A program made the translations under genes and the position numbers. From Actinomycetota bacterium (GTDB taxonomy: Bacteria; Actinomycetota; CADDZG01; JAHWKV01): a stretch of 64,000 bases of DNA. The notes beneath the pieces were generated by a model. That model did no database searches, had not been told where the DNA came from, and worked only from the letters and a program-made list of their open reading frames with translations. The DNA is taken from positions 394,738 through 458,737 of the forward strand of contig JAUJPC010000003.1 of NCBI GenBank assembly GCA_030447305.1. Reading direction: 5' to 3'. Below are positions 13,170 through 36,551 of this stretch, piece by piece; the first letter of the stretch is position 1; every line of letters starts with the position of its first letter.

Positions 13170-15692
13170 TTACTGACAGCTCTCGCAGTCCGGGTTGTCG
13201 ATGGAGCACGTCTGCGCTTCCAGCGTGATCGCCGGCGCCGTCAGGACCGTACCGGCGGTCCCAGCCCCGGCGCGTGCCGTGGCTCCCCCGATTGCCGCCG
13301 GCGCGGGGACCGCTCCATTGCCCGGATTGACTCCGCTGCCAGCCCCTCCCCCTCGCTCCAGGTGGGCCTTGGGCCGGCTCTCGTCGTAGGCGAAGGTGGC
13401 CTCCGACCGAGAACCGGGCTGGCTGAAGGCGTAGTAGGTGGACTTGAGTCCCGTCTTCCACGCCTCGAGGTAAACCCTCGATAGTGCCTCTGGGTTCTTG
13501 GTCGTCAGGTAGATGTTGCGGCTGGCACCCTGGTCAACCCACTTCTGAACCACCGCCCCCTGGTGCACCAGTGTGAGCGGTGAGATCTCGTAGGCCGTCT
13601 TGAACACCTCCTTTACGGTGGCCGGGATCTCGTCGATGGCGCTCAGCTCGCCCTGGCGCAGCAGGATCTCCTCGCAGACGTCATCCCACAGGTCGAGGTC
13701 CTTCAGCTTCGCGACCAGGTTCTCGTTCACTTCCAGGAACTTGCCTGCGATGTTGTTCCGGGAGTACACCGTTGAGAACGGCGGCTCGATCGACTGGCTC
13801 GTGCCGGCGATCAGCGAGATGGTGGCTGTGGGGGCCACCGCCATCACCGTGCCGTTGCGCATACCGCCGGTAACCTTGTTCCGCAGTGACTCCCAGTCCA
13901 GGCGGGTCTCACGGTTGACGTCCACCGGCTCCGGACGTTCTTTGTCCAGCAGCGCCAGAGTGTCGACGGGCACCATGCCCCGCGACCAGTCCGAGCCCTC
14001 AAAGGCGGGGAAGCTGCCCCGCTCGGCGGCGAGATCGGCTGAGGCGCTGATGGCGTGAAAGGAGATGAACTCCACGATGCGGTCCAGCAGCTCGAGTGCC
14101 TGCGGGCTGTCGAACGGCAGGTCCATGCGCTCCAGCAGGTCGCTCCAGCCCATGAATCCCAGGCCGACCGGCCGGCTGTTGCGGTTGGCCCTCTCGGCCT
14201 CCGGGATAGCGTAGAAGTTGGCGTCGATCACGTCGTCCAGGTGCCGGATCGCCAGCCGTGATGCGGCCGCCAGGCTGTCCCAGTCAATCTGGTTGTTCTC
14301 GTTGAGGTGTCGGGGCAGCACCACGGATGCCAGGTTGCAGACCGCCACGTTGCGTTCGTCGGTAGGCAGGAAGATCTCGGTGCAAAGGTTTGACGAGTGC
14401 ACCATGCCGACATTGCGGATGGGGCACCGGACGTTGCCCGAATCCTTGAACGTCAGCCAGGGGTGTGAGGTCTCGACCAGGCTCTTTAGCATCTTGTGGA
14501 ACAGCACCCGGGCCTTCACCGTTCGGTAGGTGCGAATGCGTCCGGCGCGCGCCTCCTCCACGTAGAACCTGTAGCGGTCGCTGAACTCGGAGCCGTAGAG
14601 CTCGGGGAGATCCTGTACCTCGTTGGGGTCGAACAGCGTCCACGGCTCGTCGTTCTCCACCCGGCTCATGAACTCGTCGTTCAAGAACAGCACCGTATTC
14701 AGGGTGTGCACCCGCTGCGACTCGTCTCCCGCCCGCTGCTTGAGGTCGAGGAAACGCTCGATGTCGTAGTGCCACGGCTCGCAGTAGACGGCGAGAGTGC
14801 CGCGTCGCCGGCCTCCCTGGTCGATGCCGGAGATCACTGCGTCCATCATCTTGATGAACGGGATGGGGCCGGACGACCGCCCGTTGATCGACCTGATGAC
14901 CGAGCCGGTGGCCCGGAGCTTGGTGATGGATGCCCCGATTCCGCCGGCGTACTTCGCCAGCTGCATGATATCGGTCAGGCTCTTGCCGATGGCCTCCATC
15001 GAATCCTGTGCTTCCATGAGGAAACAGGACGACAGCTGGCTGGACGGGGTGCCCGAGTTGAACAGAGTCGGGGTGGAGGGAATGTACTGCATCCGGCTCA
15101 TGGCGTGGTAGAAGTCGATGGCCCGGGCGGTGGGGTCATCCTCGTTGATCGAGACCCCCATGGCCACCCGCATCCAGAAGAACTGCGGCGTGTCGAAAAG
15201 CTCACCGGTCTCCAGGTCCTGCACCAGATAGCGCTCCTTCAGAGCGAACAGGCCGTTGAAGCGAAACTCCAGGTCCCGGCTTGGATCGAGCGCTTCCGCC
15301 AGGCGCTGGTAGTCAAATGCTTCAGTCAGGCGCTGGGAGATCAGGCCCCGGGCGGCACCCTCCCGGATGTAGCCGGCGAACCGGTCGACGTGGGCGGCTT
15401 TGATGTCATCGAACGAGTGCTTGCCCAGGGCGCGCTTGTAGAGGTCGAACAGCAGCACCCGAGCGGCCAGGAGGCTGTAACCGGGATCGTCCTGGACATG
15501 CTGAAGGCAGGAGCTGAGCACCAGCTCGCCGAGCTCCTTGGAGGTCACGCCGTCGTAGATGCCGACCTCAACGTCCACGAGTACGGAGTAGGTGTCGACA
15601 TCCTCCAGCCCGGTTGCGGCAGCATCCAGAATCTTCTGGAGCTTGGACACCTGGAACGGCTCGGTAACGCCGTTGCCCTTGCGGATCAGCAT
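13170..15692 (-). CDS. nrdA: Ribonucleoside-diphosphate reductase, alpha subunit (class I)
   Basis: An 840-residue large subunit that makes deoxynucleotides from NDPs. An ATP-cone occupies residues about 1-90, allowing dATP inhibition. Active-site Cys are in LSSCFLM, NLCTEIF and NVAVCNLAS. Radical-path tyrosines are in STYYAFSQPGS. After the barrel comes a Gly/Ala/Pro-rich linker of about 60 residues, then the thioredoxin-reducible tail CSIDNPDCESCQ. The linker is unusually long. GAGG lies 5 nt before the ATG. The partner nrdB is not adjacent but at 31780-32832. The tail and the presence of nrdB argue against a B12-dependent class II enzyme. Confidence 0.95.
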   Translation of the reverse strand: MLIRKGNGVTEPFQVSKLQKILDAAATGLEDVDTYSVLVDVEVGIYDGVTSKELGELVLSSCLQHVQDDPGYSLLAARVLLFDLYKRALGKHSFDDIKAAHVDRFAGYIREGAARGLISQRLTEAFDYQRLAEALDPSRDLEFRFNGLFALKERYLVQDLETGELFDTPQFFWMRVAMGVSINEDDPTARAIDFYHAMSRMQYIPSTPTLFNSGTPSSQLSSCFLMEAQDSMEAIGKSLTDIMQLAKYAGGIGASITKLRATGSVIRSINGRSSGPIPFIKMMDAVISGIDQGGRRRGTLAVYCEPWHYDIERFLDLKQRAGDESQRVHTLNTVLFLNDEFMSRVENDEPWTLFDPNEVQDLPELYGSEFSDRYRFYVEEARAGRIRTYRTVKARVLFHKMLKSLVETSHPWLTFKDSGNVRCPIRNVGMVHSSNLCTEIFLPTDERNVAVCNLASVVLPRHLNENNQIDWDSLAAASRLAIRHLDDVIDANFYAIPEAERANRNSRPVGLGFMGWSDLLERMDLPFDSPQALELLDRIVEFISFHAISASADLAAERGSFPAFEGSDWSRGMVPVDTLALLDKERPEPVDVNRETRLDWESLRNKVTGGMRNGTVMAVAPTATISLIAGTSQSIEPPFSTVYSRNNIAGKFLEVNENLVAKLKDLDLWDDVCEEILLRQGELSAIDEIPATVKEVFKTAYEISPLTLVHQGAVVQKWVDQGASRNIYLTTKNPEALSRVYLEAWKTGLKSTYYAFSQPGSRSEATFAYDESRPKAHLERGGGAGSGVNPGNGAVPAPAAIGGATARAGAGTAGTVLTAPAITLEAQTCSIDNPDCESCQ

Positions 15693-22328: not shown

Positions 22329-23452
22329 GAGTTGGCTGGAAAGAGGCCACTTTCGACGAAGTCTTCATCGATGTAACTGGAGGGAATAAGAAGACGCTGC
22401 AAAGCGAGGTACTTTTGAGCGGTACTTACCCGGTAGTAGACCAGGGAAGGGACCTCGTAGCCGGATACGTCAACGACGCGGACCGGCTCTGCAAATCAAA
22501 CGTGCCTGTGATTGTGTTTGGCGATCATACCCGCCGAATTAAGTACGTAGATTTCCCCTTCTGCATCGGCGCAGATGGAACAAAAATCTTGCGACTAAGA
22601 CACGATGGGGACCTCAAATACTTCTTTCATTACCTTCGTCAGCTACGAATCGGCGGCGGCTATGACCGTCACTTTAAGTTCTTAAGGAGACAACGCGTAG
22701 TCGTCCCGCCCTTGGCGGACCAGCGGCGGATTGCGGAGGTGCTTGACCGGTCGGATGGCCTGCGGGCCAAGCGCCGGGCCGCTCTGGCCCAACTCGACCA
22801 CCTCACCCAATCCATCTTCCTGGACATGTTCGGGGACCCATTAAGGAATCGAATGGATTTCCCGCAGCGGGCGATCGGTGAGCTTTTGACGATTCCTCCG
22901 AACTTCGGAACGATGATTCCGCCAACCCCCGACGGCGGTAAGTGGCTCTCGATACGTGTCGGCAATATTCAAAATCATCGGCTTCAGCTATCAGATCGTA
23001 AGTACGTGGACTTACCTGCTGGTGCGCTTCTCCGATACGGGGTAGAGGATGGCGACTTACTGATGGTCCGCGCGATTGCGTCTCTTGATCACCTTGGAAA
23101 GTCTGTGGTTGCTCACCCTGGGGAAGAGCATTGGGCCTTCGACTCGCACCTGATGAGGCTGAGGTTCGATCGTTCCTTGGCACACCCCGATTACTTGCAT
23201 CAGCTCCTTATAACGAGTGGTGGTCGTCAATTGTTTCTTGGAGCGTCCAGACGATCAGCTGTTCAGTACAACATCAACACCAAAGAGGTATCTGCACTAA
23301 TGATTCCGGTCCCTCCGATTGAACTGCAGCAGCAGTTCGCATCGCACGCGGCGCAGTTGGGTGGCACCGAGGCCCTCCAGATTGCTTCATCTCTTCGATT
23401 GGAGCGTCTCTTCGCCTCCCTCCAGCGCCGGGCGTTTCGGGGAGAACTCTAG
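22325..23452 (+). CDS. hsdS: Type I restriction-modification system, specificity subunit HsdS
   Basis: 375 residues from GTG 22325 (overlaps the hsdM stop). Two target-recognition domains are separated by a conserved helix. The first TRD runs to about residue 120 and ends with VVVPPLADQRRIAEVLD. The spacer helix AKRRAALAQLDHLTQSIF follows. The second TRD ends with LMIPVPPIELQQQFA and the second helix. It determines the bipartite DNA target. Codon use in the TRDs is less GC-biased than in hsdM, normal for exchanged specificity domains. Confidence 0.93.
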   Translation: MRVGWKEATFDEVFIDVTGGNKKTLQSEVLLSGTYPVVDQGRDLVAGYVNDADRLCKSNVPVIVFGDHTRRIKYVDFPFCIGADGTKILRLRHDGDLKYFFHYLRQLRIGGGYDRHFKFLRRQRVVVPPLADQRRIAEVLDRSDGLRAKRRAALAQLDHLTQSIFLDMFGDPLRNRMDFPQRAIGELLTIPPNFGTMIPPTPDGGKWLSIRVGNIQNHRLQLSDRKYVDLPAGALLRYGVEDGDLLMVRAIASLDHLGKSVVAHPGEEHWAFDSHLMRLRFDRSLAHPDYLHQLLITSGGRQLFLGASRRSAVQYNINTKEVSALMIPVPPIELQQQFASHAAQLGGTEALQIASSLRLERLFASLQRRAFRGEL

Positions 23453-23677
23453 GATGCCGGGCTTCTCGCCCAGCTTACCCATCACCAACTCCATCACGTC
23501 TGCGCTCACGCAGATCGCGAGGGCCCGAGGGTTTCGGGAGTCCGCCACCCTCTCAGAGGATCGGATCCGGCGGATGGGCGATCGGGAGTTGTCGTAGGCC
23601 ACCACCACGCATAAGATGGCACGGAGATATTCCGCGCGGTTTCCCGCCCGGCCTACCGGCTCGAAGATCTCATGCAC
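23387..23677 (-). CDS. Hypothetical protein overlapping the 3' end of hsdS in antisense
   Basis: 96 residues from GTG 23677, with an excellent ribosome site (AGGAGGTGA, 4 nt upstream). No family is recognised. The middle LRAILCVVVAYD...RALAICVSADVMELVMGKL may form a small alpha/beta domain. The last 66 nt are antisense to hsdS. The strong initiation site is the main support; the coding sequence itself is not compelling. Confidence 0.4.
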   Translation of the reverse strand: MHEIFEPVGRAGNRAEYLRAILCVVVAYDNSRSPIRRIRSSERVADSRNPRALAICVSADVMELVMGKLGEKPGILEFSPKRPALEGGEETLQSKR

Positions 23678-23822
23678 GGGGTCACCTCCTCCTTCCTGAC
23701 GAAGAGCCCGATGGGGCGGGCCGTGGGGTGGTGAAGCCCCGTTTCCGGTGATGTAAGCCCCCTGGAGACATGCGGCCTCGGCACTCCGCCTTGTTGTCAT
23801 AGGCGCCCGCTAAGGTGGTGCT

Positions 23823-24626
23823 ATGAGCCTGAATAGCGCCATCGAGTGGACTGATGCCACCTGGAACCCTACGACTGGCTGCGACCGGGTTTCTGCCGGC
23901 TGTGACCATTGCTACGCCTTGACACTCGCCAAGCGATTGAAGGCGATGGGAAACATTCGATACCAGGTCGACGGCAATCCGGTGACCAGTGGAACCGGAT
24001 TTGGTCTCACCGTTCACGCCGACAAGTTCCATGAGCCACTGAGCTGGAAGTTACCGCGCCGAGTTTTCGTCAATTCCATGAGCGATCTGTTCCATCCTCA
24101 AGTACCCAAGAACCTGATCTTTGAGATATTTGACGTCATGGCTGAAGCCAGCCAGCATCAGTTTCAAGTTCTCACAAAACGTCCACGGAGGATGGGTCCA
24201 ATCGTTCGCGATTGGTGCTCGGTGAGAGGCAGCGAACCTCTCGGTAATGTGTGGCTGGGAACGTCCATCGAGAACCAGGAATGGGCCGATCGCCGGGTCC
24301 CGCTTCTGGCCGAGGTTCCTGCTGCGGTGAGATTTATTTCATGTGAACCGCTTCTAGGGAACACCGTTATCCCCAAAATTCAAGCGCTGAATTGGGTAAT
24401 TGTAGGCGGTGAGTCCGGGCCCCGGGCAAGACCAATGGAAATCGAGTGGGTCAGCTCGCTCAGAGACCAATGCGTTTCTGCCGGTGTGGCCTTTTTCTTC
24501 AAACAGTGGGGAGGTCGGACCCCGAAGGCTGGCGGAAGAACTCTGGAAGGTCGTACGTGGGACGAAATGCCAGATCGCATAGGCAGGTCGGGAAGAAGCG
24601 CCCTTAAGGGACTCACGAATGCCTGA
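23823..24626 (+). CDS. DUF5131 / phage Gp37-Gp68-like three-Cys-motif protein
   Basis: 267 residues. SAIEWTDATWNPTTGCDRVS then AGCDHCY gives the C-x6-C-x2-C motif of DUF5131 proteins, which resemble radical-SAM enzymes in their cluster site. Other family marks are VFVNSMSDLFH, FQVLTKRP, WLGTSIENQ, FISCEPLLG and WVIVGGESG. Reaction unknown. It overlaps the next gene, a three-Cys-motif partner (TcmP), by 8 nt. The pair sits between hsdS and hsdR. Confidence 0.85.
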   Translation: MSLNSAIEWTDATWNPTTGCDRVSAGCDHCYALTLAKRLKAMGNIRYQVDGNPVTSGTGFGLTVHADKFHEPLSWKLPRRVFVNSMSDLFHPQVPKNLIFEIFDVMAEASQHQFQVLTKRPRRMGPIVRDWCSVRGSEPLGNVWLGTSIENQEWADRRVPLLAEVPAAVRFISCEPLLGNTVIPKIQALNWVIVGGESGPRARPMEIEWVSSLRDQCVSAGVAFFFKQWGGRTPKAGGRTLEGRTWDEMPDRIGRSGRSALKGLTNA

Positions 24627-25751
24627 ACCCACTGTTTGGGCGGCGGAGCCTCACACTCTCAAGAAACACGAAATCTTACGACGCTATCTTGAGGGATGGT
24701 TCCCGATCCTTGGGAGCAGTCGAAAGAGAATACTCTATTTTGACGCATTCGCTGGCCCTGGAGTCTATGCGGGAGGCGAACCCGGATCTCCGATCGTGGC
24801 TCTGAACACCCTCCTGGAACACTCCAGATTTGACCGGCTGTCTGCGTGCGAATTTGTCTTTATTCTCCTGGAGCCAAGTTTGACAGGTTTGAGGTTTTGA
24901 GGGAAGAGGTTCGAAAGACGCTAGCGCGATTTCAGTCGCCTGGAAATGTCCGCGTTTTAACTCGTAAGCTGACCTTCGATGACGGTGCCAGCGAAATTCT
25001 TGAGGCCCTCCATCGGCAGAAGGCTGATTTGGCTCCAACACTCGCCTTCATCGATCCCTTCGGGTTCACTGATACACCCCTCGATCTGACTTGTAGGTTG
25101 ACGAACTTCGCTAGTTGCGAAGTGCTATTCACTTTTATGTTCGACCATATAAATCGGTTCCTCGAGAAGGAAACCGTTGCGAATCATCTGCAGTCATTGT
25201 TCGGGACCGATGGATTCCAGATTGCTACGTCTAAGACGGGCCACGAGCGCAAGCAGTACTTGCGTGATCTCTTTCGCGACCAGCTCAAGAAGGAGTGTGG
25301 CTTCAAATACGTGACCAGCTTTGAGATGGTAAATCTGCAGGGGAACAGTGTGTACTTCCTGTTTCACGGCACCAGGAGCCACAAAGGTCTTGAGGTGATG
25401 AAGAATGCACTGTGGAAGATCGATCCTGCAGGTGGCTTTCGGTTCCAAGATCGATTTGCTGGACAAGAGGTACTGTTCGGCGGTGACACCGTGGATGTTT
25501 CCCCACTGCGACGAGCTATTCTTGAACGCTTTTCAGGGGTTGACGTTGACGTTAAGACCATCGCCAAATTCGTTCTCATCGAAACCCCTTACAACGCGAA
25601 TCAGTGGAAGTACAAGGTCCTTCGCCCGTTAGAAGAGGAAGGGCTGGTAAGCGCTCTCACTCCCCGAAGCCGGCGCTTCTCCTATCCAAACGGGACAAAG
25701 TTGAGATTCGGTTCACTCCGATCACCCGCCGGCAATGACTCACTTCAATAG
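24619..25751 (+). pseudogene. Three-Cys-motif partner protein TcmP, split by a frameshift
   Basis: The first reading frame (24619-24900) encodes YFDAFAGPGVYAGGEPGSP and stops early. The second frame, from about 24870 to 25751, continues KFDRFEVLREEVRKTL, AFIDPFGF and MFDHINRFL. One missing base near 24872 (within CTGGAGCCAAG) explains the break. Restored length is 377 residues, normal for TcmP. DAFAGPG and DPFGF look like motifs of a Rossmann methyltransferase-like fold. Its neighbour DUF5131 is the usual partner. Whether the gap is a sequencing error, real decay or a phase switch cannot be decided here. Confidence 0.75.
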
Positions 25752-25790
25752 CCCGGTTGCTCGGGACGAGTGCATCCTTCCTCCTGGTCG

Positions 25791-25805
25791 TATACTCAAT
25801 GTATA
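25791..25805. promoter_or_regulatory. Inverted repeat in the mazE promoter
   Basis: TATAC-TCAAT-GTATA is a perfect 5-bp inverted repeat about 20 nt upstream of the mazE TTG start. TATACT can also be read as a -10 element. A likely autorepression site of the module. Confidence 0.35.
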
Positions 25806-25826
25806 TCCGGGAAGGGAAGGAGTTCC

Positions 25827-26069
25827 TTGCAGACCAAAATTCAGAGATGGGGAAACAGTCTCGGACTGCGTATACCTAGGGCTTTCGCTGCCGAGGTCCA
25901 GGTAAGTGCTGGGTCTACGGTCGATGTCTCAGTGGAGGATGGAGCTTTGATCGTCCGATCGGTATCGCCACGTGTTTACCGGCTCGAGGATCTGCTCTCG
26001 GGTGTCACCTCCTCGAACCTGCATCAAGAGGCCGATTGGGGGGCTCCGTCGGGCGGTGAGGCCTGGTAG
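25827..26069 (+). CDS. mazE: MazE/AbrB-type antitoxin
   Basis: 80 residues from TTG 25827 (AGGAG 4 nt upstream). The start TKIQRWGNSLGLRIPRAFA is the SpoVT/AbrB swapped-hairpin DNA-binding fold. The tail LEDLLSGVTSSNLHQEADWG is the toxin-binding peptide typical of MazE. Its stop overlaps the mazF GTG start (TAGTG). Confidence 0.88.
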   Translation: MQTKIQRWGNSLGLRIPRAFAAEVQVSAGSTVDVSVEDGALIVRSVSPRVYRLEDLLSGVTSSNLHQEADWGAPSGGEAW

Positions 26070-26407
26070 TGGCTACCTACGCCCCAAAGCGTGGCGACAT
26101 TATCTGGCTCCACTTCACTCCCCCCGCCGGCCGCGAGGAGGCAGGCAGGCGGCCGGCACTTGTTATCTCTCCGGCTACCTACAACCGGAAGGTCGGCCTG
26201 GCCCTGGTTTGCCCGATAACCTCGAAGGTGAAGGGCTATCCCTTCGAGGTGGAGTTGCCACGGGTCCTGAAAGCCGAGGGAGCGGTTCTGTGCGATCAGA
26301 TCCGCAGTCTCGACTGGCGCGCAAGGCGGGCGGAGCCTTTGTGCCCGGCACCCACGGAGGTTCTTGATGAAGCAACCGCCAAAATTCTTGCTTTGGTCAA
26401 TCCGTGA
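26069..26407 (+). CDS. mazF: MazF/PemK-type endoribonuclease toxin
   Basis: 112 residues. RGDIIWLHFTPPAGREEAGRRP, LVISPATYN, CPITSKVKGYPFEV and CDQIRSLDWRAR match the ChpB/PemK branch of MazF mRNA interferases, with the catalytic Arg and Thr/Ser positions in place. It overlaps mazE by one base. No other function is expected. Confidence 0.93.
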   Translation: MATYAPKRGDIIWLHFTPPAGREEAGRRPALVISPATYNRKVGLALVCPITSKVKGYPFEVELPRVLKAEGAVLCDQIRSLDWRARRAEPLCPAPTEVLDEATAKILALVNP

Positions 26408-26435
26408 TCAAGCCAGGGTGTCGGGCCAGCCCTCA

Positions 26436-26816
26436 TCAGCACTGGGCCACCTCAAGGTGCGGATCGATATCCAGAAGATCTGTCGGGTCGCTCGTCACAA
26501 CCACCGCCCCGGTTGTTCGTGCCAGAAGCACTACCGAGGCATCGATTACGTCCGAGGTGCCGGCGGCCCCGCACAGGTGTCCCGCTGCCTGAGCAACGGC
26601 AAATGTCATCGGATGGATCTGTACCGGGCTCGAGCCTAAGACCCTGACCAGCCGGACCTGCCGGGCAGGGTTTCGCCATACCTGCGCCACCACGCCCGCA
26701 GGGACGTGGATATCCTCCGCAAGTTCCAGGAGGCGAACCAGTCTGCGGTCGGCCCTTTCAATACCGATCAGCGCACCGGCATCAAGAACTAAAGACCGAG
26801 GACGCTTCGCGCCCAC
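26436..26816 (-). CDS. PIN-domain toxin (module 3)
   Basis: 126 residues from GTG 26816, overlapping the antitoxin gene by 28 nt. LVLDAGALIGIE starts the PIN fold. Further acidic residues lie in TSDVIDASVVLLA and VVTSDPTDLLDID. A likely VapC-like ribonuclease. It converges on mazF, with 28 nt between the stops. Confidence 0.82.
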   Translation of the reverse strand: MGAKRPRSLVLDAGALIGIERADRRLVRLLELAEDIHVPAGVVAQVWRNPARQVRLVRVLGSSPVQIHPMTFAVAQAAGHLCGAAGTSDVIDASVVLLARTTGAVVVTSDPTDLLDIDPHLEVAQC

Positions 26817-27013
26817 GCGGTCTCCTCGTCGGTAGCGGGACCGATTTCCCCCCTGATCTCGGCAAGAACGTCTTTGAGCCGTTCCCGCTGGGCCCGCTGG
26901 CTCATAGCCTCGGCAACCCAGGCGCTCACCGACGGCGCACTCCCCGCAGCGACCGCGGCCTCCGCTTCCCTAACAGTCTCTTCGTCTACCGATACGGTGA
27001 GGCGCTTGCGCAT
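26789..27013 (-). CDS. VapB-like ribbon-helix-helix antitoxin (module 3)
   Basis: 74 residues. MRKRLTVSVDEETVREAE begins with a beta strand and helix of a ribbon-helix-helix domain, and an acidic C-terminus follows. It precedes and overlaps the PIN toxin gene. A -10-like TAGTAT (27028-27023) lies 9 nt before the ATG, giving a nearly leaderless transcript. Confidence 0.8.
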   Translation of the reverse strand: MRKRLTVSVDEETVREAEAAVAAGSAPSVSAWVAEAMSQRAQRERLKDVLAEIRGEIGPATDEETAWARSVLGL

Positions 27014-27027
27014 ACGATCATCATACT

Positions 27028-27042
27028 ATTGCCTACGGCAAT
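27028..27042. promoter_or_regulatory. Inverted repeat between antitoxin and hsdR
   Basis: ATTGCC-TAC-GGCAAT is a perfect 6-bp inverted repeat overlapping the -10-like sequence of the minus-strand antitoxin gene. A probable toxin-antitoxin operator. It could also affect hsdR on the other side. Confidence 0.45.
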
Positions 27043-27117
27043 ATGCACCATCCCCTTCCCCTGCCAGTTGCTGCGACAATCAGGCAATGAAGTGTCGTGC
27101 GGGGAAATCTGAAGTCC

Positions 27118-30100
27118 GTGGCTGATCAGTTCGCATTCCTCCAAGGCCGAGTGGCCTGCGGTCTACGAAGCCGCTGCCAAGGTTGAGGCCGCCGTTTTTC
27201 CGGACCCTCGCACCGCCTGCTTCTACGCTCGCCGGGCTCTGGAGCTGGCAGTGGAATGGGCCTACCGGTTCGACCCCGAGCTGCGCCTGCCGTACCAGGA
27301 CAACCTGAGTGCCCTGATCCATGACCCCACATTCAAGGCCGTCGCCGGCGAGGCGGTCTTCGCCAAGACCCGGCTGATCAACACGCTCGGTAACCGGGCG
27401 GTTCACAGCAACAAGGTGATCCAGCAGCTGGATTCGCTGAACGCCGTCCGGGAGCTCTTCCATGTCTGCTACTGGCTGGCCCACACCTACTCCTTGACCT
27501 CGCACCCGCCGGCGGGTCTCGCCCTGGATGAGGCGGCGCTGCCCAGGACCGGCCCCATTCCCCGCCAGACCGCCGAGCAGCTTCGCGCCCTTAAGGACGA
27601 ACTCGCGGACCGGGACGAAAAACTGGCCGCGCTTCTGATCGACAAGGCGGAGTTGGACGAGGAGCTAAAGCAACTTCGCAAACAGGTCGCCGCCGCCAAG
27701 AAGGCCGCGGCCGAGCACCCGGACACCCACGACTACTCGGAGGCGCAGACCCGTACCGCGTTGATCGATCAGATGCTCGGCGAGTCCGGCTGGGTCCTGG
27801 ATGAGAAGCGGGACCGCGAGTTCCCGGTTACGGGGATGCCCGACGGCAAGGCCGGCAAGGTGGACTACGTGCTGTGGGGCAACGACGGCGCCCCACTGGC
27901 GCTAGTGGAGGCCAAGAAGACCAGCCGCTCGGCGAAGGAGGGCCAGCATCAGGCGAAGCTGTACGCCGACTGCCTGGAGGCCAAGTTCGGCCGGCGCCCG
28001 GTGATCTTTTTCACCAACGGCTACGAAACCTGGTTGTGGGACGACGTGAACTACCCGCCCCGCAAGGTCCGGGGGTTCTACAATCGGCCTGAGCTGGAGC
28101 TGATGAGCCAGTGGCGCTCCACCCGCAGGCCGCTGGCCGGGGCGGAGATCAAGCCCGATATCGTCGGGCGTTACTACCAGAAGCGGGCGATCCGCCGGAT
28201 CGCCGAGGCGTTCGAAAACCACCATGAGCGCAAGGCGCTGGTGGTAATGGCCACCGGCGCCGGGAAGACCCGCACCGTCATCGCCCTGTCGGATCTGCTG
28301 ATGCGCTGCAACTGGGCGAAGCGGGTGCTCTTCCTGGCCGACCGTAGGGCGCTGGTACGCCAGGCGGTGAATGCGTTCAAGCTGCACCTGCCGGAGTCGG
28401 CGCCGGTGAACCTGATCGAGGAGCGGGACGCCGACGGGCGGATCTACGTCAGCACCTACCCAACGATGATGGGGTTGATCGACGAGTTCCAGGGTAGCGA
28501 GCGCCGGTTCGGCCCCGGGTACTTCGACCTGGTGGTGATCGATGAGGCCCACCGCTCGGTGTACCAGAAGTACCGGGAGATCTTCGAGTACTTCGACTCC
28601 CTGCTCGTCGGCCTGACCGCCACCCCCAAGGACGAGGTCGACATCAACACCTACTCGCTGTTCGACCTGGAGCGGGGAGTCCCCACCGACGCCTACGGGT
28701 TGGACGAGGCGGTGGCCGACGGTTTCCTGGTGCCGTTCAAGGCGGTGTCCGTCCCGCTCAAGTTTCAGCGGACCGGTATCGCCTACGACGACCTTCCCGA
28801 GGAGGAGAAGGAGCTGTGGGACGCCATCGAGTGGGACGAGGACGGCACCCAGCTTGATCGGGTGGGGGCCGAGGCCATCAACAAGTGGCTGTTCAACGCC
28901 GACACCATGGACAAGATGCTCGCCCACCTGATGGAGCGGGGGCACAAGGTGGCGGGCGGCGACCGGCTGGGAAAGACGATCATCTTTGCCAAGAACAAAC
29001 ATCATGCCGAGTTCATCGAGACCCGGTTCAACGCCAACTACCCCCACTACAAGGGGACTTTTGCCCAGGTGATCCACCACGAGGTCAGCTACTCGGACAA
29101 CCTGATCGAGAACTTCTCCAACCCGGCGAAGGAACCGCACATCGCCATCTCGGTCGACATGCTGGACACCGGCATCGACATCCCCGAGGTGGGGAACCTG
29201 GTGTTCGCCAAGATGGTGCGTTCGAAGACGAAGTTCTGGCAGATGATCGGCCGGGGTACCCGGCTGTGTCCGGACCTTTTCGGCCCGGGGCAGAACAAGC
29301 TGGACTTTTACGTTTTCGACTACTGCCAGAACCTCGAGTTCTTCAGCGCCAACCCGGCGACCGTGGACGGCAACCTCGCGGAGCCGCTCAAGACCCGGCT
29401 GTTCAAAAAGCGGCTGGAGCTGGTGGGGGAGCTGGACTCGGCGGCGGCATCAGGCTCGGCGCTGGATCTGGTGGCGGAGCCCACCGCGGTCTACGGGTTG
29501 CCGCCCGAGGCTGCGCTGCGCAGCGACGTGACCGGCATCCTCCGGGAGGAGGTAGCGGCGATGAATCCCGAGAACTTTGTGGTCCGGCCCCGGCGGGAAC
29601 TGGTGGAGAGGTATTCGGAGCCGGAGGCGTGGACGACCCTGGATCAGTCGGCCCTGACCACGCTGGCCCACGAGGTGGCCGGCCTGCCCTCGGAGTTGCC
29701 CTATCAGGGCGAGGAAGCCAAGCGGTTCGACCTTCTGATGCTCCGTCTGCAACTGGCGGTGCTGCGCTCCGAGCCGGCGTTCGAAGGCTTGAGTGCCCAG
29801 GTTCGGGATATTGCCGCCCTGCTAGAGGAGAAGTCCAATATCCCGGACGTGGCGGAGCAGATACCCCTGATCCAGCAGGTCCAGGAGGAGGAGTGGTGGG
29901 TCGACGTCACCCCGCCCATGCTGGATCAGGTGCGCAAGAAGCTGCGGGACCTGGTTCGTCATATCGACAAAGTGAAGCGCAAGCCGATCTACACCGACTT
30001 CGAGGACGAGATGGGCCAGGAGCAGGAGATCTCGTTCAGCATGCTTGGCGGCGAGGGGGATTTCGAGCGGTTCCGGGCCAAAGTGCGCAACTTCCTGCGG

Positions 30101-30531
30101 GAGCACCAGGACCGGATGGTGATCCACAAACTGCGAACCAACCAGCCGCTGACGCCGACCGATCTGGCAGAGCTGGAGCGGATCTGGCCGAGAGCGGTGC
30201 GGGCGACGAGGAGGATATCGAGCAGGCCCGTGAGCGTAGCCAGGGGCTTGGGCTGTTCGTCCGCTCGCTGGTCGGGCTGGACCGGGAGGCGGCGAAGCAG
30301 GCGTTCGCCGGATTCCTGGAGGGGAGGGCTCTGACCGCCGACCAGCTGGAGTTCGTGAACATGATCATCGACCACCTGACCGAGCACGGAGTCATGGACC
30401 CATCCCGCCTTTACGGCTCGCCGTTCACCGACCTGACCGCCAGGGGCCCCGACGGCCTGTTCACCACCGAGCAGGTGGAGGAGTTGATCGGAACCCTGCG
30501 CAGCGTGAAGGCGGCGGCCGAAGCAGCCTGA
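27118..30531 (+). CDS. hsdR: Type I restriction enzyme HsdR, with two compensating frameshifts
   Basis: The restriction and translocation subunit. The intact central frame (27251-30334) contains a DUF4145-like N-terminus, a coiled coil (about 27580-27720), the nuclease segment VDYVLWGNDGAPLALVEAKK (PD-(D/E)xK), Walker A MATGAGKTRT, DEAH in VVIDEAHRS, and the helicase motif IGRGTRLCP. The expected N-terminus (FAFLQ, then AEWPAVYEAAAKVEAA) needs a one-base deletion near 27144. The expected C-terminus (ESGAGDEEDIEQ...GLFVRSLVGLDREAAK) needs one extra base near 30183. Restored length is 1137 residues. If the shifts are real, the C-terminal HsdM/S-binding part is lost and restriction is probably impaired. 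Confidence 0.88.
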
Positions 30532-30562
30532 TTTGTCGGCGCGGCTGGGTACCATCCGAGCT

Positions 30563-31243
30563 ATGGCCGAGTCCGGGACCACCCGCATAGCCGACCTTCC
30601 GGGGTCCGAGCGCCCGAGGGAACGGCTAGCTCGGCTGGGGCCGGGGAGCCTGAGCGATCAGGAGTTGCTGGCCATCATCCTGCGAACCGGGGGCCGGAAA
30701 ATTCATGCCGTCGATTTGGCTGAATCCTTGCTCCACCGCCACGGCTCTGTGCGGGATCTGGCGGGGGCGGAGTTGGACGATCTGCTGGGGATGAACGACC
30801 TAGGCCCGGCGAAGGCATCCGCCGTGGTGGCCGCCTTCGAGCTGGGCCGGCGCTCCGGGGGCCTCAGTGCGAAACGGATGGTGATCCGCGGCCCGGATGA
30901 CATAGCGCTGGCAGTGGGCCCTCTGCTGGCGGGCCGGGCGCAGGAGGAGGTCTTGGTCCTAATATGCGGCTCGGGAAACCGTTTGAGGCAAGTGGTGCCG
31001 ATGACCCGGGGCGCCCCCGACCGGTGCCTGCTGGTCCCAAGGGACGTGATCTCCACCGTCCTGCGTCACGGTGGCACCGCCTTCGCAGTTGCACACAACC
31101 ACCCATCGGGCGACTGCACGCCGAGCCCGGAAGACAAGATGGTCACGGGACGGATAGAGCAGGCGGCCAGAACGGTAGGACTGAATTTCCTCGATCATCT
31201 GGTTGTAACGGAGACCGCTTGGGCGAGTGCGAAGGAGATTTGA
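30563..31243 (+). CDS. radC: RadC-family JAMM/MPN-domain protein
   Basis: 226 residues from ATG 30563. An N-terminal helix-hairpin-helix region (LDDLLGMNDLGPAKASAVV) leads to the JAMM metal site HNHPSGDCTPSPED, with a Glu upstream. RadC proteins are common on mobile and defence islands. A DNA-repair role has been questioned and is not assumed. It follows hsdR by 31 nt and ends the island. Confidence 0.9.
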   Translation: MAESGTTRIADLPGSERPRERLARLGPGSLSDQELLAIILRTGGRKIHAVDLAESLLHRHGSVRDLAGAELDDLLGMNDLGPAKASAVVAAFELGRRSGGLSAKRMVIRGPDDIALAVGPLLAGRAQEEVLVLICGSGNRLRQVVPMTRGAPDRCLLVPRDVISTVLRHGGTAFAVAHNHPSGDCTPSPEDKMVTGRIEQAARTVGLNFLDHLVVTETAWASAKEI

Positions 31244-31314: not shown

Positions 31315-31767
31315 TTAGGACTGAATAATCTGAGCGTTGCCGCTGATGACAATCTGTGCTCCCCGTCCGACTTGAACAGCAGTTCCTCGAGTCCGCATCG
31401 AAGTGTCGCCAGTAATTATGGTGAACCCGGGCCCGGATCCACCGGTTTGTAGCCGGGGGGCAAAAATCGACGTAGCGCCGATTCTTATGCTGCCTACTTG
31501 ATGGTCGAACTTCGCCGCGCGGAGTGCCGTGACTACTGCTCCGTCTATAGCGATCGATCCGGACCCTGCAAGTGCCTCGAGGATGCCTGCCAACTCATGC
31601 ATGGCGGCCACTCTGTCGTCCTCAGAGGACGGAGTAGTGAGACGCGGTTCGAGTCCTGGTTTTAGTGCAAAGACCTTCTTGACTGCGGTGGAAATGGCAG
31701 GTACCGAATAGTTGGCACCTAGCCCGGCGGCTAATTGAATGAGGAAATTAGCGACTAGTTGGTCCAT
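31315..31767 (-). CDS. Unrecognised 150-residue protein directly downstream of nrdB
   Basis: A hydrophobic N-terminal helix (MDQLVANFLIQLAAGLGANY) and a helical middle lead to a beta-prone, Gly/Ser/Thr-rich C-terminus with GSIRIGATSIF and TAVQVGRGAQIVISGNAQI. The VQVG tetrad resembles the core of RHIM-like amyloid motifs. AAGGAG, 8-9 nt before the ATG, overlaps the end of nrdB and the spacer is only 12 nt, so it is probably co-transcribed with nrdB. No known family is recognised and the role is open. Confidence 0.6.
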   Translation of the reverse strand: MDQLVANFLIQLAAGLGANYSVPAISTAVKKVFALKPGLEPRLTTPSSEDDRVAAMHELAGILEALAGSGSIAIDGAVVTALRAAKFDHQVGSIRIGATSIFAPRLQTGGSGPGFTIITGDTSMRTRGTAVQVGRGAQIVISGNAQIIQS

Positions 31768-31779
31768 TGCTTGCTCTCC

Positions 31780-32832
31780 TTAGCCCCGGACTGAAGCTTC
31801 GTAATCGATCGGTTTGGACTCGAAGAAGTTGATCAGCTCCGGCATGTCGTTTTGGGTGATGAGCCACTTGGCCGGGTTCTTGTCGCCGTACACCTTCTCG
31901 AAGCCGATTTTCTGCAGGCGCCTGTCGGCGATGTAGCGGCAGTACTGGCCGTAGACGCTGCGGTTGAGGCCCAGGATGCCGTCGGGCATGGCTGCTTCGG
32001 CGTACGCGGTCTCAAGCTCTACCGCCGTGCGGATCAGGCCGGTGATCTCCGTCCGGAACTCGGGGGTCATGACCTGTGGGTTCTCCGCGATGATCGCCGA
32101 TATCAGGTCGACGCCGAAGGCCAGGTGGATCGACTCGTCCTTCAGGACGTAGCGGATCAGGGTTCCCAGGCCCTTCAGCAGCCGGCGGCGCTCGAAGGAG
32201 AGGCCGACCATGAACCCGGTGTAGAAAAAGATGCCCTCCATGATCACGTAGTAGCCGACCAGATTGCGGATCAGGTGCCGAAGCCTGTCGTCCTCGTCGG
32301 TGAAGTTGCCCTCGATGAGCGCCTTGGTCAGCTCGGTCTCGAATTTTTCCTTGGCCGCCATCTCGGGGCAGGTGGCGTGCATCTTGAAGATGGCTTCCCG
32401 GTTCAGGTTGAGCGTCTTGATGACGTAGTCAAACGTCACCGTGTGGTTCATCTCCTCGTAGGCCTGCCGGCCGAGGTACAACCGCGCCTCCGGGATGGGC
32501 AGCTGCGGGTACAAAGCCATGACGAGGTTGTTGGCCACCAGGCTCTCGGACGTGCAGAAGAACCCCAGCATCCAGGTCACGTAGTGGCGCTCCACGTCGG
32601 TCAGGGCGCTGTTCCACTGCTCGACATCCTCTGAAAGGGGGATCTCCTTGGGGAACCAGGTGTTGGCGCAGCCCTGGTCGAAGTACTCCAGAGCGAAGGG
32701 GTAGCGGATCTCTCCCAGCTCAACTGCATCGTACGTGGAGTGCCAGCTAGCTGTCCGGCGCTCATCGAGGTCGACAACGTCGCGGGAAGTGACCGGCCCT
32801 AGATCGCCGATGCCTTCGCTCTTAGTGGCCAT
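31780..32832 (-). CDS. nrdB: Ribonucleoside-diphosphate reductase, beta subunit (class Ic-like)
   Basis: 350 residues from ATG 32832 (GAAGGAG upstream). Metal ligands read as Glu96, Glu127 and His130 (EEMNH), the Glu in VIMEGIFF, and Glu/His in DESIHLAFG. The residue four after His130, normally the radical Tyr, is Phe134, and the first ligand is Glu instead of Asp. Both features and the spacing (31, 3, 4) match the Mn/Fe class Ic subunit of Chlamydia. The C-terminus INFFESKPIDYE should bind NrdA. nrdA is 16 kb away on the same strand. Paired NrdR-like boxes lie upstream. Confidence 0.93.
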   Translation of the reverse strand: MATKSEGIGDLGPVTSRDVVDLDERRTASWHSTYDAVELGEIRYPFALEYFDQGCANTWFPKEIPLSEDVEQWNSALTDVERHYVTWMLGFFCTSESLVANNLVMALYPQLPIPEARLYLGRQAYEEMNHTVTFDYVIKTLNLNREAIFKMHATCPEMAAKEKFETELTKALIEGNFTDEDDRLRHLIRNLVGYYVIMEGIFFYTGFMVGLSFERRRLLKGLGTLIRYVLKDESIHLAFGVDLISAIIAENPQVMTPEFRTEITGLIRTAVELETAYAEAAMPDGILGLNRSVYGQYCRYIADRRLQKIGFEKVYGDKNPAKWLITQNDMPELINFFESKPIDYEASVRG

Positions 32833-32881: not shown

Positions 32882-32927
32882 CCCCCATATGTATGGGCCG
32901 AGCGTATTCTCACACCACATCTTGGGA
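32882..32927. promoter_or_regulatory. Pair of NrdR-like boxes upstream of nrdB
   Basis: Boxes around CCCCATATGTATGG (centre 32889.5) and ACACCACATCTTGGGA (centre 32919.5) are 30 bp apart. The second shares CCACATCTTGGG, and 10 bp later TAATTACACAC, with the region upstream of the ferredoxin gene. The left box deviates at one position. Confidence 0.5.
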
Positions 32928-33080
32928 TAGGGTGACTAATTACACACGGGTACTTACAAGGGTGTCAAGTCCGGGAAGAAACAATCCGAATTCGTTCGAC
33001 CGAGCGGGGGAAAGGCAAGGGTAAAGACAGTCTGGGCCAATTTCAGCTGGTCGAACACTCGTTCGATAATAGCACGGTAG

Positions 33081-33395: not shown

Positions 33396-33439
33396 CAGGA
33401 CAAAGATAGCCGTTCCTCTTGGGAGTTAGGGAAAACTCT

Positions 33440-35725
33440 GTGTTAATTCGGGTTTCCCAAATCGCCGCCAGCCGCGACAATCGCTGGGTGAACAAACGCT
33501 GGAATCCTTCCCTATGGGCGTCGCCCAAGCCATTCGGCATCGGAGAAGGGCGACCGAACAACTACCTGGAGATCCTCAAGGCGGTAGGGCAGAACCGCAA
33601 AGAGCTTCCCTACGCATGGCGAATCCTTAATCAGGGGGTGTGCGACGGGTGCTCCCTGGGCACCAAGGGGATGCGGGACTGGACCGTCGATGAGGTCCAT
33701 CTATGCAACGTTCGGCTGCGGCTGCTCGGTCTGAACACCATGCCGGCCATGGATCCGGCTCTGCTGGGTGACGTCTACCAGCTGCGGACCCTGACCAGCC
33801 GGGAGCTTCGCGACCTCGGCCGGCTGCCCTTCCCGATGCTGCGCCGCCGGGGGGAGCGAGGCTTCCTGAGGATTTCGTGGGACGATGCGCTCGACCGTAT
33901 CGCCGCCCGGATCCGCTCCACCGATGGCCGGCGCACTGCTTTCTATCTAACCTCCCGCGGCATGCCGAACGAGAGCTATTACGCGGCGGCCAAGGCGGCA
34001 CGGGCGATGGGAACCAACTCCATCGACAACGCGGCCCGGGTTTGCCACGCCCCCAGCACCTTTGCGCTCAAGGAGGGACTGGGGGTCGCTGCAACCACGT
34101 GCTCCTTCTCGGACTGGATCGGATCCGACCTGGTGGTGTTCATCGGCTCCAACCCGGCCAACAACCAGCCGGTGGCCATGAAGTACCTGTACCACGCCCG
34201 CAAGGAGGGCACGAAGGTGGTCTGCGTAAACCCCTATCGGGAGCCCGGCATGGAACGCTACTGGGTGCCAAGCAACGTGGAGTCCGCGCTGTTCGGGACC
34301 AAGATCACCGACCGGTTCTTCCAGATCAACGCCGGCGGCGATGTCGGCTTCCTGAACGGTGTGCTCAAGCACATGATCGAGCGGAACCTGGTCGATCAGG
34401 CTTTCATCGACGGGCACACTGCCGGGTTTGCAGAGCTCCATTCAGAGTTGCGGATGCAGTCATGGCAGGATCTCGAGCGCCTGGCCGGGTTGCCCAGAAC
34501 CGAGATGGCGGAGTTCGCGGAGATGCTGGCCGCCGCCAAGACCTGCGTCCTGGTGTGGAGCATGGGGGCCACCCAGCACGCATATGGCGAGGACAACGTC
34601 CGGGCGATCGTGAACCTTGGACTGGCGAAGGGCTTCGTCGGCCGTCCGGGATGCGGCCTCATGCCCATACGGGGCCACTCCGGCGTGCAGGGAGGGGCGG
34701 AGATGGGTGCCTACGCAACGGTGTTTCCCGGCGGGGTGGGCGTGGGCAAGGACTCCGCCGGGGCGCTGAGCCGCACATGGGGTTTCGAGGTTCCCACCAC
34801 CCCCGGCATGGTGGCGCCGGAGATGATCGACGCCGCTTCCACCGGGGAGTTGGAGGTGCTGTTCAGCGCCGGAGGCAACTTCCTCGAGGTGATGCCGGAG
34901 CCCCGGTTCGTCGAGGAGGCGCTGGGCCGCATCCCGATGCGGGTCCACATGGACATCGTCGTGTCGTCGCAGATGCTGGTGGAGCCGGCCGGCGAGGTTC
35001 TGGTGCTGCCGGCGGCCACCCGGTACGAGACACCGGGAGGCGTGACGGAGACCTCCACCGAGCGCCGCATCATCTTCTCCCCGGAGGTTCCCGGGCGGCG
35101 GATCGGCGAAGCCCGTCCTGAGTGGGAGGTGTTCCTCGACCTCGCTCGGCGGGTCGTCCCCGAGCATGCCGCAGCCCTGAGCTACGCCGGCACCTCGGAG
35201 CTCAGGAAGGAGATAGCCCGGGTGGTGCCTCTGTACGACGGCATCCAGAACCTGAAGGAGGCCGGGGACTCTTTGCAGTACGGAGGCCCCCATCTGTGTG
35301 CCGGTTGGAACTTTCCCACGTCCGACGGAAAGGCGCACTTCGCAGCGGTCCCGCTGCCCCGGGCCGAGGTGCCGGAGGGATCGTTCGTGTGCACCACCCG
35401 CCGGGGCAAACAGTTCAACAGCATGGTGCAGGAGAACCGGGATCCGATTACCGGAGCCGGCCGGGAGGCGGTCTACATGAATCCCGAAGATGCGGCGTCG
35501 CTGCGACTGGGGGACGGCGATCCCGTTACGCTCCGCAGCCCGGTGGGGGAGTACAGCGGGCGGGTCTTTCTCGCTCCACTGGCACCCGGCAACCTCCAGG
35601 TGCACTGGCCGGAAGGCTCCGCCCTCATCGACAGAGGGTGCCGGTCGAAGGACTCTAAGATCCCCGACTACAACGCTGTGGTAACGGTGTCCCGGGCGGA
35701 CCGGGCGGCGACGCTCGGTGAGTGA
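33440..35725 (+). CDS. FdhF/YdeP-family molybdopterin oxidoreductase (formate dehydrogenase-like)
   Basis: About 761 residues. GVCDGCSLGTKGMRDW near the N-terminus is the short Cys motif of the YdeP branch. AARVCHAPS has Cys followed by His at the Mo position, as in formate dehydrogenase-like enzymes. LVVFIGSNPANNQP and the C-terminal dinucleotide-binding domain are present. Natural substrate of this branch is uncertain. The start is unclear: GTG 33440 has AGGGA upstream; TTG 33419 and GTG 33488 are alternatives. It overlaps fdhD by 8 nt. No beta or gamma subunit is nearby. Confidence 0.85.
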   Translation: MLIRVSQIAASRDNRWVNKRWNPSLWASPKPFGIGEGRPNNYLEILKAVGQNRKELPYAWRILNQGVCDGCSLGTKGMRDWTVDEVHLCNVRLRLLGLNTMPAMDPALLGDVYQLRTLTSRELRDLGRLPFPMLRRRGERGFLRISWDDALDRIAARIRSTDGRRTAFYLTSRGMPNESYYAAAKAARAMGTNSIDNAARVCHAPSTFALKEGLGVAATTCSFSDWIGSDLVVFIGSNPANNQPVAMKYLYHARKEGTKVVCVNPYREPGMERYWVPSNVESALFGTKITDRFFQINAGGDVGFLNGVLKHMIERNLVDQAFIDGHTAGFAELHSELRMQSWQDLERLAGLPRTEMAEFAEMLAAAKTCVLVWSMGATQHAYGEDNVRAIVNLGLAKGFVGRPGCGLMPIRGHSGVQGGAEMGAYATVFPGGVGVGKDSAGALSRTWGFEVPTTPGMVAPEMIDAASTGELEVLFSAGGNFLEVMPEPRFVEEALGRIPMRVHMDIVVSSQMLVEPAGEVLVLPAATRYETPGGVTETSTERRIIFSPEVPGRRIGEARPEWEVFLDLARRVVPEHAAALSYAGTSELRKEIARVVPLYDGIQNLKEAGDSLQYGGPHLCAGWNFPTSDGKAHFAAVPLPRAEVPEGSFVCTTRRGKQFNSMVQENRDPITGAGREAVYMNPEDAASLRLGDGDPVTLRSPVGEYSGRVFLAPLAPGNLQVHWPEGSALIDRGCRSKDSKIPDYNAVVTVSRADRAATLGE

Positions 35726-36551
35726 CCGACCGGGTGCCTCCCGCCCGGCGGTGATCCGCCGGGTCGCGCGGGACGGGACGGTCAAGCCCAGGTCGGAGAC
35801 CCTCGCCACGGAGGAGCCCCTCGACATCCGGCTGAACGCTGCCGGGCAGGAGCACGCGCTGACCGTCACCATGCGGACGCCGGGCAACGACTTCGAGCTG
35901 GCGGCAGGTTTTCTCTACGGGGAGTCGGTCCTCGCCCGCAAGGACGATCTTTTGGCGGTCCGGTACTGTCAGCCGCAGCCGGAGCAGCAGTACAACGTGG
36001 TCACCGTGGACCTGCGTGGTGCCGTGCCGGAGACAGCAAGGCTCGACCGGAACTTCTACACCTCGAGCGCCTGCGGGGTGTGTGGCAAGGCCACCCTGGA
36101 GCAGATTGCCGTCACCGGGGTACCGGCGCTGGGGCCGGGACCCAGGGTGGGTGCGGACGTCATCCTTTCCCTCCCGGAGCGGCTGAGGAGGGCCCAGAAG
36201 GTGTTCGCCAGGACGGGCGGCGTCCACGCGGCAGGTCTTTTTGATGCGGAAGGCGGTCTGGAGTGCGTGCGGGAGGACGTCGGGCGCCACAACGCGATGG
36301 ACAAGCTGGTGGGGTGGGCATATCTGCAGGGCCGGCTGCCGTTGACCGATCACATCATTCTGGTCAGTGGACGAGCAAGCTTCGAGCTGGTCCAAAAAGC
36401 CCTGAGGGCAGGCGCCGGCGTGCTGTGCGCCGTCTCGGCCCCGTCGACGCTGGCCGTGGATCTGGCTTCCCGCTTCGGGATGACGCTGGTGGGCTTTCTT
36501 CGGGACGACTCGTTCAACATCTACAACGGCGATGAACGGGTCGTTCCGTGA
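35718..36551 (+). CDS. fdhD: Formate dehydrogenase accessory sulfurtransferase FdhD
   Basis: 277 residues from GTG 35718. SSACGVCGKATLEQ carries the Cys pair that passes sulfur from IscS to the Mo cofactor. GGVHAAGLFD, REDVGRHNAMDKLVG and LVSGRASFELVQKA are further family motifs. Its tight coupling to the YdeP-type gene indicates that enzyme needs a sulfido ligand and is therefore formate-dehydrogenase-like. Confidence 0.95.
   Translation: MSDRPGASRPAVIRRVARDGTVKPRSETLATEEPLDIRLNAAGQEHALTVTMRTPGNDFELAAGFLYGESVLARKDDLLAVRYCQPQPEQQYNVVTVDLRGAVPETARLDRNFYTSSACGVCGKATLEQIAVTGVPALGPGPRVGADVILSLPERLRRAQKVFARTGGVHAAGLFDAEGGLECVREDVGRHNAMDKLVGWAYLQGRLPLTDHIILVSGRASFELVQKALRAGAGVLCAVSAPSTLAVDLASRFGMTLVGFLRDDSFNIYNGDERVVP

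Follow-up and report, generated by a model that had tools for sequence, protein, structure and literature searches.

Among class I ribonucleotide reductases (RNRs), Phe at the radical position together with a Glu ligand marks class Ic, Tyr with Asp marks classes Ia and Ib, and Tyr with Glu marks class Id; the cofactor of class Ic is Mn(IV)/Fe(III) (PMC8463856). The metals are not fixed by the ligand set alone (PMC4118035). In the class Ic small subunit of Chlamydia trachomatis (R2c; its residues are prefixed Ct below), Y222 and W51 pass an electron to the Mn(IV)/Fe(IV) state during activation, and F197 is the residue that tells R2c from the R2-like ligand-binding oxidases, R2lox (PMC4118035). 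Ic-like sequences cluster with Ia-like ones (PMC8463856), and, as cited in PMC3824934, non-monophyly of the Glu/Phe proteins was reported earlier by neighbour joining (Lundin 2010). We found no description in the literature of class Ic in the group of the bacterium studied here, or of its deep NrdAB branch.

The NrdB described here is encoded in a 64,000-nt stretch of DNA (the window, meaning the whole stretch that was analysed; genome coordinates G000:C3:394738-458737) from a genome of 2.88 Mb that is 98% complete. We consider it, with a probability of about 0.8, to be the beta subunit of the sole detected RNR of this genome, free of the radical tyrosine and provided with a Mn/Fe-type oxidant store. 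The identity of the protein, its residues, the predicted fold, the gene for its partner and the lack of any other detected RNR were shown directly; the metals, their oxidation states and the radical path are what we infer.

The nrdB gene and its active-site residues

The gene runs on the minus strand from an ATG at 32832 to a stop codon at 31780-31782, and the start position was common to three members of the genus. The ATG was preceded by GGAGAAGGAG. The product matched Pfam Ribonuc_red_sm (E=2e-76) and NCBIfam NF005550, ribonucleotide-diphosphate reductase subunit beta, at 352.7 bits (cut-off 309). Three other members of the genus had the gene too, 92-94% identical, and all of them kept E96, E127, H130, F134 and Y136. 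The initial annotation had the gene coordinates right, and its residue numbers (96, 127, 130, 134 and 136 as E, E, H, F and Y) were exact.

A phmmer comparison with C. trachomatis R2c (1syy) aligned residues 20-346 at 311 bits, and residues 96-136 were free of gaps. F134 fell on Ct F127 and E96 on Ct E89, which bore out the original proposal that Phe stands at the Tyr position and Glu replaces the usual Asp. Since residue 134 is a Phe, it cannot carry a tyrosyl radical. The five further ligands of class Ic, in the order E, H, E, E and H, were present as E127, H130, E199, E233 and H236. The relay W51/Y222/D226 and the C-terminal Y338 had counterparts in W59, Y228, D232 and Y344, and Phe203 aligned with Ct F197. 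The exact signature WEEHFYEYEHY was common to 93 sequences.

The same proposal had also relied on the 31-3-4 spacing of residues 96, 127, 130 and 134. This spacing does match the Chlamydia protein, but it is not diagnostic: it was present in all 102 Glu/Phe relatives and all three Glu/Leu relatives, and also in 27 of 28 Asp/Tyr relatives. The spacing is therefore uninformative on the subclass, and only the letters E and F discriminate.

The other class I assignments were tried and rejected. A class Ia subunit needs an Asp ligand and a radical Tyr, and a class Id subunit needs Glu with Tyr at the radical position; the residues here are E96 and F134. Class Ib (NrdF) was ruled out by the profile scores (TIGR04171, 81 bits vs 355) and by a genome without NrdI.

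An AlphaFold2 model built from 38 sequences reached a pLDDT of 84 and a pTM of 0.81, with low confidence at both termini; a single-sequence prediction (pLDDT 41) was set aside. The first thirteen matches in a fold search of the PDB were all C. trachomatis NrdB chains, Mn/Fe-loaded forms included, and the model followed 1syy at 1.3 A over 288 columns with 47% identity. The fourteenth match was the R2 of Saccharopolyspora erythraea (6y2n), which is also a Glu/Phe protein. Other class I structures gave E about 1e-13 and weaker; compared with the pair of Glu/Phe proteins, the E-values of all remaining structures fell short by about nine orders of magnitude. By sequence, the same two proteins were the best solved relatives, S. 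erythraea R2 scoring 256 bits and the next structure 117 bits.

RNR genes of the genome and the surroundings of nrdB

NrdA (Table 1) was the sole class I/II large-subunit match in the genome, where neither NrdJ nor any other additional large subunit was detected. Neither NrdD nor NrdI was detected in the 98% complete genome, by searches that worked on control genomes, and no second NrdB was found in it. With one NrdA and no detected NrdJ, NrdD or NrdI, the NrdAB pair should be the sole RNR. Judged by gene content, this NrdA, in the same genome and window, is the likely class I partner of NrdB. The initial assignment to a class Ic-type R2 was supported by the alignment and the profile, by the predicted structure and its fold matches, and by the genome context, all of which agreed with one another.

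An NrdR-type ATP-cone protein was encoded on another contig (G000:C2:654944). No NRAMP Mn importer was found in the genome; three ZnuA-type metal-binding proteins were present, which may serve Zn or Mn.

Within the family, G005 had an NrdA at 85% identity. A different member (G004, locus L154) had the B12-dependent NrdJ (PRK06556, 1333 bits vs 859) and no NrdB of the window type. Large-subunit matches in members of the order and class were weak (24-28% identity) and mostly of NrdJ size. Part of the family appears to have swapped a class II enzyme for the class I NrdAB pair, perhaps by transfer.

The two genes do not lie side by side in the genus; in the window, about 16 kb separated nrdA from nrdB. 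A type I restriction-modification block (20796-30531) lay between the two genes. In G001, no DNA matching this block was present beside nrdB, which suggests that the block was inserted locally between the two genes. The reading frame of hsdR seemed to switch near the 3' end, where the 1027-aa frame lost similarity and an overlapping frame (28885-30531) held a plausible HsdR C-terminus. This would be either a broken gene or a sequencing error.

A 150-aa open reading frame on the minus strand (31315-31767) started 12 bases downstream of nrdB. Pfam and PADLOC gave no match for it, and it was not kept next to nrdB across the genus. Divergent from nrdB on the plus strand (33419-36551), the translations read as a formate-dehydrogenase-like molybdopterin oxidoreductase followed by a putative FdhD-like gene. 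The region upstream of nrdB (32912-32968) was conserved genus-wide and carried a promoter candidate and CCCAAGATGTGGTGTG, possibly an NrdR site.

Table 1. Positions of genes, codons and upstream elements in the window
Feature	Position	Strand	Remarks
nrdB, class I ribonucleotide reductase small (beta, R2) subunit	31780..32832	-	350 aa; Glu/Phe (class Ic) signature
nrdA, RNR large subunit	13170..15692	-	840 aa; one N-terminal ATP cone, NLCTE at 435, YY at 753-754, C-terminal CESC
Trp59 codon, electron relay	32656..32658	-	Ct W51; function from PMC4118035
Glu96 codon, first metal ligand	32545..32547	-	Ct E89; Asp in class Ia/Ib
Glu127 codon, metal ligand	32452..32454	-	Ct E120
His130 codon, metal ligand	32443..32445	-	Ct H123
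Phe134 codon, radical-tyrosine position	32431..32433	-	Ct F127
Tyr136 codon	32425..32427	-	Ct Y129; also in Tyr-bearing Pseudomonas-type proteins
Glu199 codon, metal ligand	32236..32238	-	Ct E193
Tyr228 codon, class Ic activation relay	32149..32151	-	Ct Y222; function from PMC4118035
Glu233 codon, metal ligand	32134..32136	-	Ct E227
His236 codon, metal ligand	32125..32127	-	Ct H230
Tyr344 codon, C-terminal, radical hand-over to NrdA	31801..31803	-	Ct Y338; after NFFE motif
Candidate nrdB promoter, TTGACA-N18-TGTAAT	32939..32968	-	Conserved in genus
Weak NrdR-box-like site, conserved TCCCAAGATGTGGTGT	32912..32927	-	4 mismatches/16; lead only
hsdM	20796-22328		
hsdS	21953-23452		
DUF5131 protein	23823-24626		Between hsdS and hsdR
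PDC-M30A-type protein	24846-25751		Between hsdS and hsdR
hsdR	from 27251 (frame switch within 27251-30531)		
RadC	30533-31243		

Proposed cofactor chemistry and its alternatives

In the mechanism that we propose, Mn(II) and Fe(II) would be bound by the four Glu and two His, Mn occupying site 1 beside Glu96, and would react with O2 (or H2O2). One electron would then reach the Mn(IV)/Fe(IV) state via Y228 and W59, and the resulting Mn(IV)/Fe(III) form would be the stored oxidant instead of a tyrosyl radical. On docking of NrdA, the hole would travel along W59-D232-H130, through Tyr344 and NrdA Tyr753/754, to the catalytic Cys of NLCTE. We draw this path by analogy, from class I RNRs at large.

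Several points are counted against the Mn/Fe reading, one being that a ligand set does not in itself settle the metals (PMC4118035). Near the site, NrdB has N129 (Ct V122), V132 (Ct H125), K231 (Ct R225) and S95 (Ct A88), second-sphere differences from residues that are mostly invariant in class Ic. Further points are the position of the lineage in the trees (below) and the lack of an NRAMP match, although the ZnuA-type proteins are present.

The same second-shell differences would also fit a metal-based oxidant without Tyr that uses another pair, either Fe/Fe or the Mn2(IV,III) of class Id, and so would the position of the lineage, which the best trees keep apart from the clade of Chlamydia type. 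Class Id offers a precedent, a Mn2 pair at a Glu-ligand centre without a Tyr radical, but it has Tyr at the radical position (PMC8463856), where NrdB has Phe. The nearest folds and sequences, on the other hand, are Mn/Fe proteins, and we regard another metal pair as unlikely.

A stable radical might instead sit on a different tyrosine, which would make the protein a class Ia subunit in disguise. The candidate is Tyr136, which lies two residues past Phe134 and was conserved in every Glu/Phe relative; the initial annotation had named a Tyr at this place as the one that could prove to occupy the radical site. In the alignment, Tyr136 corresponded to Ct Tyr129 and not to the radical site, so that this objection fails, and Asp/Tyr proteins that have a radical Tyr of their own carry it too. 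Its presence in Tyr-bearing Pseudomonas-type proteins shows that it is not a relocated radical site. A helix step of two residues should, moreover, turn it away from the site. We give this possibility very little weight.

That NrdB is a decayed subunit, or a helper no longer capable of radical chemistry of its own, seemed just as improbable. In favour are the missing radical Tyr and the distance of about 16 kb between nrdB and nrdA. Against this, the six ligands and the relay residues were kept across the genus at 92-94% identity, and the 98% complete genome yielded no other NrdB or RNR class; with no RNR found besides NrdAB, a dead subunit is unlikely.

That NrdB is an R2lox and not an RNR subunit can hardly be credited: R2lox is likewise a Mn/Fe protein with four Glu and no radical Tyr (PMC3824934, PMC4118035), but the R2lox models scored 51-79 bits, far under their cut-offs, NFFE is present, as is the C-terminal Tyr344, which an R2lox would lack, Phe203 at the Ct F197 position, where an R2lox would have a small residue, shuts the R2lox ligand channel, and no beta subunit other than NrdB was found for the sole NrdA.

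Phylogeny and comparison with known systems

An NrdB tree and a concatenated NrdA+NrdB tree were computed with the two trait columns removed. A first NrdB tree had contained long phage and plasmid branches, and the window lineage was placed only after the addition of G218-type relatives and NrdA. The genus of the window and the G218-type lineage formed a Glu/Phe branch with support of 97/92 (NrdB) and 100/100 (NrdA+NrdB). This branch sat outside a clade supported at 96/90 and 99/97, respectively. The latter contained the Chlamydia-type and S. erythraea-type Glu/Phe proteins, three Glu/Leu proteins and two kinds of Asp/Tyr proteins, namely the Pseudomonas/Legionella type and those of two viral contigs.

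The Glu/Phe label required four changes on both trees, three of them forced by well supported branches. In AU tests, joining the window lineage with the Chlamydia-type block was not rejected on NrdB with a smaller sampling (p=0.44), and gave a borderline p=0.047 on NrdA+NrdB. Keeping only the viral Asp/Tyr pair outside was not rejected (p=0.08), and long branches remain in the trees. We tentatively suggest a deep Glu/Phe NrdAB lineage that may be sister to all sampled Chlamydia-, Saccharopolyspora- and Pseudomonas-type enzymes. Glu/Phe would then be either ancestral, the tyrosyl radical having been regained at least twice, or of independent origin.

Since the best trees set the lineage outside the Chlamydia-containing clade, "class Ic" is used here as a label of signature and likely chemistry only, and makes no claim that NrdB descends from that clade. 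NrdB is a new member, on a deep branch, of an RNR type already known. The interest is modest for the protein itself and greater for the evolution of the radical cofactor. The only detected RNR of this bacterium is apparently of a tyrosine-free, Mn/Fe type, in a family that includes a B12-dependent class II user. The deep branch lends itself to asking how often, and in which direction, the tyrosyl radical and the metal-stored oxidant were exchanged, and the lineage suits a test of whether Glu/Phe alone predicts Mn/Fe.

The class Ia-type Asp/Tyr NrdB proteins, both Streptomyces-like (L006, L126) and of the Pseudomonas type (L105, L111, L112), share the fold family, the spacing, NFFE and the C-terminal Tyr with the window NrdB, but their ligand is Asp and their radical site holds Tyr. 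Another tyrosine-free variant, in which the Glu ligand is combined with Leu at the radical position, was seen in three genomes of the same phylum (L177, L178 and L181 in G115, G095 and G291), near NrdA and on a long branch.

The G218-type NrdB (L123/L162, family f59 of the same phylum) is the sister in both trees, and shares Glu/Phe and the Asn before the ligand His. It differs in having Trp at the Ct Y222 position, in its identity to the window NrdB of about 40-46%, in the adjacency of nrdA and nrdB, and in its patchy occurrence within its genus. The Glu/Phe NrdB of family f59 (L162, L189-L199) occurred in part of one genus only, beside a 906-aa NrdA.

The S. erythraea R2 (6y2n) and the NrdB of Methylocella and Phyllobacterium also have Glu/Phe and a class I NrdA partner, but they group with the Pseudomonas/Legionella Asp/Tyr proteins and not with the window lineage. 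C. trachomatis R2c (1syy, 4d8f, 4m1i) shares with the window NrdB the Glu ligand, the Phe at the radical site, all the other ligands, W51, Y222, D226, Y338, F197 and the fold. It differs at the four second-sphere positions given above, is 42-47% identical, and belongs to another clade in the best trees. The NrdA partners of the Chlamydia and Planctomycete types are mostly about 940-1050 aa long, whereas the NrdA of the window has 840 aa and one ATP cone.
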